64,000 bases of DNA from an uncultured Candidatus Poseidoniales archaeon (GTDB lineage: Archaea > Thermoplasmatota > Poseidoniia > Poseidoniales > Thalassarchaeaceae): positions 53,864 through 117,863 of the forward strand of contig CACJKA010000003.1 in the NCBI GenBank assembly GCA_902593945.1, in the 5' to 3' direction. Below, one piece after another: positions 50,359 to 50,697 of this stretch. The position numbers and the translations under genes were made by a program. Numbering within the stretch: position 1 is the stretch's first letter; each line of letters starts with the position of its first letter. The notes below the pieces were generated by a model. It searched no databases and was not told the DNA's origin. It saw only the letters and a list, made by a program, of their open reading frames with translations.

Positions 50359-50472
50359 AATTAATTCTTATTTTTGAAGACAGCGCACCGAGAGCATCAT
50401 AAGAGCAATGTCTTTCGTAGGATTACCCTTGGGGGTATAGTATAACTTGGTAGTACAGCGGGCTCCAGTTGC

Positions 50473-50534
50473 ACGGGAATGACGACGAATAAGTGATCTG
50501 ATGGTATTGATGACCAACTGGAGCACTGACCCGT
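50473..50534 (+). ncRNA. C/D box guide RNA inside the tRNA-Trp intron
   Basis: Box C ATGACGA (one mismatch to RTGATGA, 50479), D' CTGA (50498), C' TTGATGA (50507) and D CTGA (50526) are closed by a 5-bp terminal stem ACGGG/CCCGT. The 12-base D guide CCAACTGGAGCA pairs over 10 bases with GCTCCAGTTG at 50462-50471, spanning the anticodon and the exon-intron junction. The fifth base upstream of box D pairs with C34, so it should direct 2'-O-methylation of C34. Haloferax tRNA-Trp introns are known to do this. The D' guide has no match I can see in this tRNA. Confidence 0.82.
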
Positions 50535-50545
50535 CGCAACCCGAG

Positions 50546-50570
50546 AGCGTGCAATTGCCAAGTGCACGCT
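50546..50570 (+). repeat. Perfect 8-bp hairpin in the 3' half of the tRNA-Trp intron
   Basis: AGCGTGCA pairs with TGCACGCT around a nine-base loop. It lies between the C/D unit and the 3' splice site and probably holds the intron in the splicing-competent shape. Confidence 0.75.
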
Positions 50571-50697
50571 AAGCGGAAGATACCCGCTGATCTGGGTTCA
50601 AATCCCAGTGCCCCCACCACTTAATTTCAAAATCATAGTTCCAATTGCGATACGATAAGGGGTAGGTTTGAAGGACAAATTACACTTGCCCTAACTC

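Follow-up and report, generated by a model that had tools for sequence, protein, structure and literature searches.

A probable single-guide box C/D RNA for C34 in the tRNA-Trp intron of a Thalassarchaeaceae archaeon

The window, a 64,000-nucleotide stretch of a contig from an uncultured Poseidoniales archaeon of the family Thalassarchaeaceae (genus probably Ca. Thalassarchaeum), carries a tRNA-Trp(CCA) gene on the forward strand at positions 50431–50616, which scored 47.3 bits against the Rfam tRNA model. ARAGORN reported it as tRNA-Trp(cca) when introns were allowed; a default ARAGORN run misses the gene. The splice position between nucleotides 37 and 38 agrees with intron coordinates 50469–50581 in an alignment of 146 tRNA-Trp genes that spans Poseidoniia and other Euryarchaeota. 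The gene and its intron contain the following features.

50431–50468, + strand: 5' exon of tRNA-Trp(CCA), nucleotides 1–37 (Rfam tRNA, ARAGORN with introns, 146-gene alignment)
50465, + strand: C34, within the 5' exon; the anticodon is 50465–50467
50469–50581, + strand: intron, 113 nt, between nucleotides 37 and 38 (splice position conserved across Euryarchaeota)
50473–50477, + strand: terminal stem, 5' strand ACGGG, pairing with 50530–50534
50479–50485, + strand: box C, ATGACGA (read from the sequence; aligns with box C of Rfam sR3)
50486–50497, + strand: D' guide region CGAATAAGTGAT, 12 nt, in which the ancestral guide for nucleotide 39 is read as lost (3 pairs only in the window)
50498–50501, + strand: box D', CTGA (read from the sequence; conserved in the class)
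50507–50513, + strand: box C', TTGATGA (read from the sequence; conserved)
50514–50525, + strand: D guide CCAACTGGAGCA, 12 nt, 10 bp with 50462–50471, C34 at N+5 (pairing, shuffling, covariation)
50526–50529, + strand: box D, CTGA (read from the sequence; CTGA or CCGA in the relatives parsed)
50530–50534, + strand: terminal stem, 3' strand CCCGT, pairing with 50473–50477
50546–50570, + strand: 8-bp hairpin AGCGTGCA/TGCACGCT in the 3' part of the intron (in most family members)
50582–50616, + strand: 3' exon, nucleotides 38–73, with A38 at 50582 and C39 at 50583 (Rfam tRNA, alignment)

The C, D', C', and D boxes and the closing stem ACGGG/CCCGT, which an earlier sequence-only reading had placed in the intron, are all present, with an imperfect box C that departs from RTGATGA at one base. 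Changes in the terminal stem are compensated in relatives (ACAGG/CCTGT and GCAGG/CCTGC). In the central helix of the bulge-helix-bulge (BHB) motif, nucleotides 32–35 lie opposite intron positions −3 to −6 (50463–50466 with 50576–50579) and form three of four pairs, the exception being a C34·A mismatch. Of 80 distinct Poseidoniia introns, 72 have this mismatch, compared with 8 of the 69 introns sampled from other archaea, and it would leave the predicted methylation target unpaired within the BHB helix. Elsewhere in the same genome, ARAGORN assigns a 76-nt intron to an elongator-type tRNA-Met(CAT) (L052, 11233–11384, − strand), in which no box C/D was seen by eye.

The D guide forms 10 Watson-Crick pairs with the unspliced transcript, from G31 to intron base +3, and C34 lies opposite the fifth guide base upstream of box D (N+5). 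Only 3 of 200,000 shuffled guides reached 10 bases at C34, and 10 bases anywhere in the pre-tRNA were reached by 3 of 20,000. These data confirm the pairing with the anticodon region, its register, and its extension across the 5' splice junction, as proposed in the sequence-only reading. Every C/D-bearing gene that we parsed (214/214) has a D guide with at least nine contiguous pairs (G-U allowed), and the pairing covers nucleotides 31–37 and extends into the intron. In the tRNA-Trp intron RNA of genus g24 (L307–L311; family f3, of another order), box D reads ATGA instead of CTGA and the C34 guide is kept.

A comparison of tRNA-Trp introns, which the same reading had suggested across Poseidoniia, revealed strong covariation in a set of 31 distinct guide/target pairs drawn from many euryarchaeal lineages. 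In this set, 84.4% of cells were paired, as opposed to 24–52% when the guide was slid, and double-sided changes were found in 44 cells compared with 15.3 in shuffles. Five of the pairs are fixed by data selection, because the scan pattern demanded CTCCA and TGGAG; the informative pairs are those of nucleotide 31, nucleotide 37, and intron bases +1 to +3. At the start of the intron, lineage-specific bases are matched by the guide as TTG/CAA, CGG/CCG, AGG/CCT, and TTA/TAA. Of all the evidence for the guide being real, we regard this covariation as the strongest.

Given the shortness of the C, D', and D boxes and the imperfect box C, they could in principle be chance motifs in an ordinary tRNA intron. 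That reading is at odds with the conservation of the arrangement over many lineages and with a match to an Rfam family, and the covariation already refutes it, so that we assign it practically no weight. The family in question, sR3 (RF01133), matches 50475–50531 with 29.7 bits (E 6.1e-06), which falls short of the 41-bit gathering threshold. The alignment spans the full C/D domain of the window, and sR3 has the same UGGAGC-N-CUGA guide for C34 at its end; judged from this guide, sR3 would itself be a tRNA-Trp intron RNA. The consensus D' guide of sR3, CGGGUCU, fits nucleotide 39, whereas that of the window does not.

All sampled Poseidoniaceae (family f2) carry GTGGGTTTG before box D', which pairs over 8–10 bases with the region of nucleotide 39 and places this nucleotide at N+5, whereas the D' guide of the window forms 3 pairs at the same place. 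The corresponding guide pairs over 8–9 bases with the U39 region in Halobacteria and over 7–9 bases with C39 in Methanomicrobiales, Archaeoglobus, and Aciduliprofundum, nucleotide 39 being C or U by lineage. Among the genera of the Thalassarchaeaceae (family f1), some have an intact D' guide, whereas in others it is eroded or displaced by a single base. None of the 13 genomes of the window's genus retains it: ten have AATAAGTGAT, two have AATTGTGAT, and one has a one-base deletion, and these three variants differ at guide positions 6–9. No D' guide in this genus places nucleotide 39 at N+5, and for this reason we classify the window's RNA as a C34 guide and not as a dual guide.

The observation that the D' guide has no visible target was borne out, as its best pairing in the pre-tRNA is 3 pairs. 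It had been set beside the presence of a C at position 39. This base is indeed C, but it does not explain the missing target, because many archaea with C39, sister lineages included, have a D' guide directed to it. We read the missing target as a lineage-specific guide loss in the window's genus, which would entail the loss of Nm39 there.

Alternatively, the D' guide of this genus might have been retargeted to another RNA and not lost, as could be suggested by the GTGAT next to box D', which is kept in all three variants. Two observations argue against this. Positions 6–9, which are needed for a guide duplex, vary among members of the genus, one of which has a base deleted, and a search of the organism's own 16S, 23S, and 28 tRNAs (65% of the genome being present) gave a best score of 15 against a shuffle mean of 15.8 (P = 0.76). 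The rRNA match envisaged in the sequence-only reading was thus not found above chance. We consider retargeting unlikely, and we likewise hold it improbable that the Thalassarchaeum D' half has gained a new RNA target; if it had, a tRNA intron would guide the methylation of a second RNA besides that of its own anticodon. In other Thalassarchaeaceae the D' guide reads GTGGGTTTT, and this sequence gives a candidate match to the 16S rRNA of the window's organism (L050, around 1232) over 12 positions, G-U pairs included.

Loss of the D' guide in the genus, together with relatives that have lost the guide domain or the intron outright, would also fit a relic intron, in which the boxes and the D guide are kept by descent and C34 is no longer methylated. 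Within this same genus, however, the difference between A37 and G37 is balanced by a compensatory guide change (L009/L199 CCAATTGGAG versus CCAACTGGAG), and every genome retains an intact D guide while the adjoining D' guide drifts. Together, these findings indicate that selection still acts on the D half, and the intron is in our view very probably not a relic. Nevertheless, relatives that lost the guide live, which means that it is dispensable and might simply persist passively.

The relatives concerned all belong to family f1, where the C/D domain or the whole intron is repeatedly absent (L227–L232, L260–L264, L272–L283, and L297), at the same locus where the neighbours could be checked. 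In genus g9, five genomes have a boxless intron of 40–41 nt, and the boxes are kept in G192; the 109-nt intron of G043 (g7) lacks a D guide; and intronless tRNA-Trp genes occur in five g5, four g3, and two g7 genomes. The intronless g3 and g5 genes have the downstream subtilase-like neighbour seen in the window, and in g3 the upstream neighbour is also the same. In a tree of the downstream neighbour, intronless g3 is nested among guide-bearing g3 (100/95), and g5 is joined with the short-intron g9 (98/94). Considered with G192 and g7, this tree suggests that there have probably been at least three separate losses in the family, a count that rests on a one-gene tree and genus labels. Import of the intronless g3 gene with its neighbourhood from g5 was rejected, as the neighbour tree nests it within g3. 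Despite their separation in this tree, the intronless tRNA-Trp genes of g5 and part of g3 (L275–L283) have an altered anticodon stem, ACCGG/CCGGT, in common, which could reflect either transfer of the tRNA gene only or convergence.

A search of the genomes with a guide-less tRNA-Trp for a relocated C34 guide, conducted with exact patterns that a divergent guide would escape, revealed no shared replacement. The few matches were not common to relatives except in the pair G024 and G066, and the one hit of this pair that was read, L268, looks protein-coding. An insertion of about 300 nt in G232, considered as a mobile element, turned out to be a stretch of N bases in the assembly.

Genes for guide function and splicing are present in the window's genome, which encodes fibrillarin (PF01269, E 2e-44) and a splicing endonuclease (PF01974, E 2.8e-13); fibrillarin was also found in 131 of 147 other genomes of the family. 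We conclude, with a probability of roughly 0.9, that the intron holds the window's orthologue of the known archaeal box C/D guide of tRNA-Trp introns, which would direct methylation of C34 and work as a single guide. In the mechanism that we propose, boxes C/D and C'/D' would serve as binding sites for L7Ae, Nop5, and fibrillarin, and the guide would act in the unspliced tRNA or, as an excised intron, on another precursor. The D guide, paired from G31 to intron base +3, would direct 2'-O-methylation of C34, which would precede splicing by the BHB endonuclease. Because the guide for nucleotide 39 has decayed in this genus, the copy in the window would work as a single guide.

As a guide RNA, the window's intron is mostly ordinary: its type is known, it lies in a lineage where it is expected, and its second guide has decayed. 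The modest new element is a natural series within one marine archaeal family, from dual guide to single guide, guide-less shortened intron, and no intron; wherever neighbouring genes could be checked, the locus is the same. The guide-less and intronless members are natural counterparts of the Haloferax tRNA-Trp intron deletion, which is viable according to work cited in PMC4090602 and PMC7714728. The series allows one to ask whether Cm34 and Nm39 vanish once the guide is gone or are then provided by other means.

The tRNA-Trp intron of Haloferax volcanii guides Cm34 and Um39, probably in trans and before splicing (PMC2584109, PMC4090602, PMC7714728; Clouet d'Orval 2001 and Singh 2004, as cited in PMC4090602 and PMC2584109). 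Methylation before splicing was already stated in the earlier literature (PMC2584109), and such guides have been reported from at least 29 archaea (PMC2584109), with Pyrococcus sR50 described as a tRNA-Trp intron guide (PMC7994747). In our pattern scan of genome contigs, the same architecture was found, among the matches listed, in Halobacteria, Methanomicrobiales, Methanobrevibacter, Archaeoglobus, Aciduliprofundum, Thalassarchaeaceae, and Poseidoniaceae. The restriction of such introns to Haloferax and its relatives, assumed in the sequence-only reading, is therefore too narrow. That reading also saw in the window an extension of the mechanism to a planktonic lineage; given the wide occurrence, presence in plankton is expected, and an orthologue of the Haloferax and Pyrococcus intron guide is to be expected in Poseidoniia.

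H. volcanii shares with the window the tRNA, the intron position, the boxes, and a D guide that places C34 at N+5 over the 5' junction. It differs in having an intron of 103 nt and U at position 39, whereas the window has 113 nt, C39, and no usable D' guide for this nucleotide. The Poseidoniaceae and other Thalassarchaeaceae introns (L005–L048, L201–L259) lie in orthologous genes with the same D guide, and with the same neighbours as in the window where flanking sequence was covered. Unlike the window, the Poseidoniaceae keep the D' guide for nucleotide 39, and some Thalassarchaeaceae are without guide or intron. Methanobrevibacter resembles the window in keeping the D guide for C34 next to a D' guide that does not match nucleotide 39, but its D' sequence is unrelated (CGCGTAA) and the spacing between D' and C' is usually longer. 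The guide for nucleotide 39 was presumably lost there independently of the window's genus.
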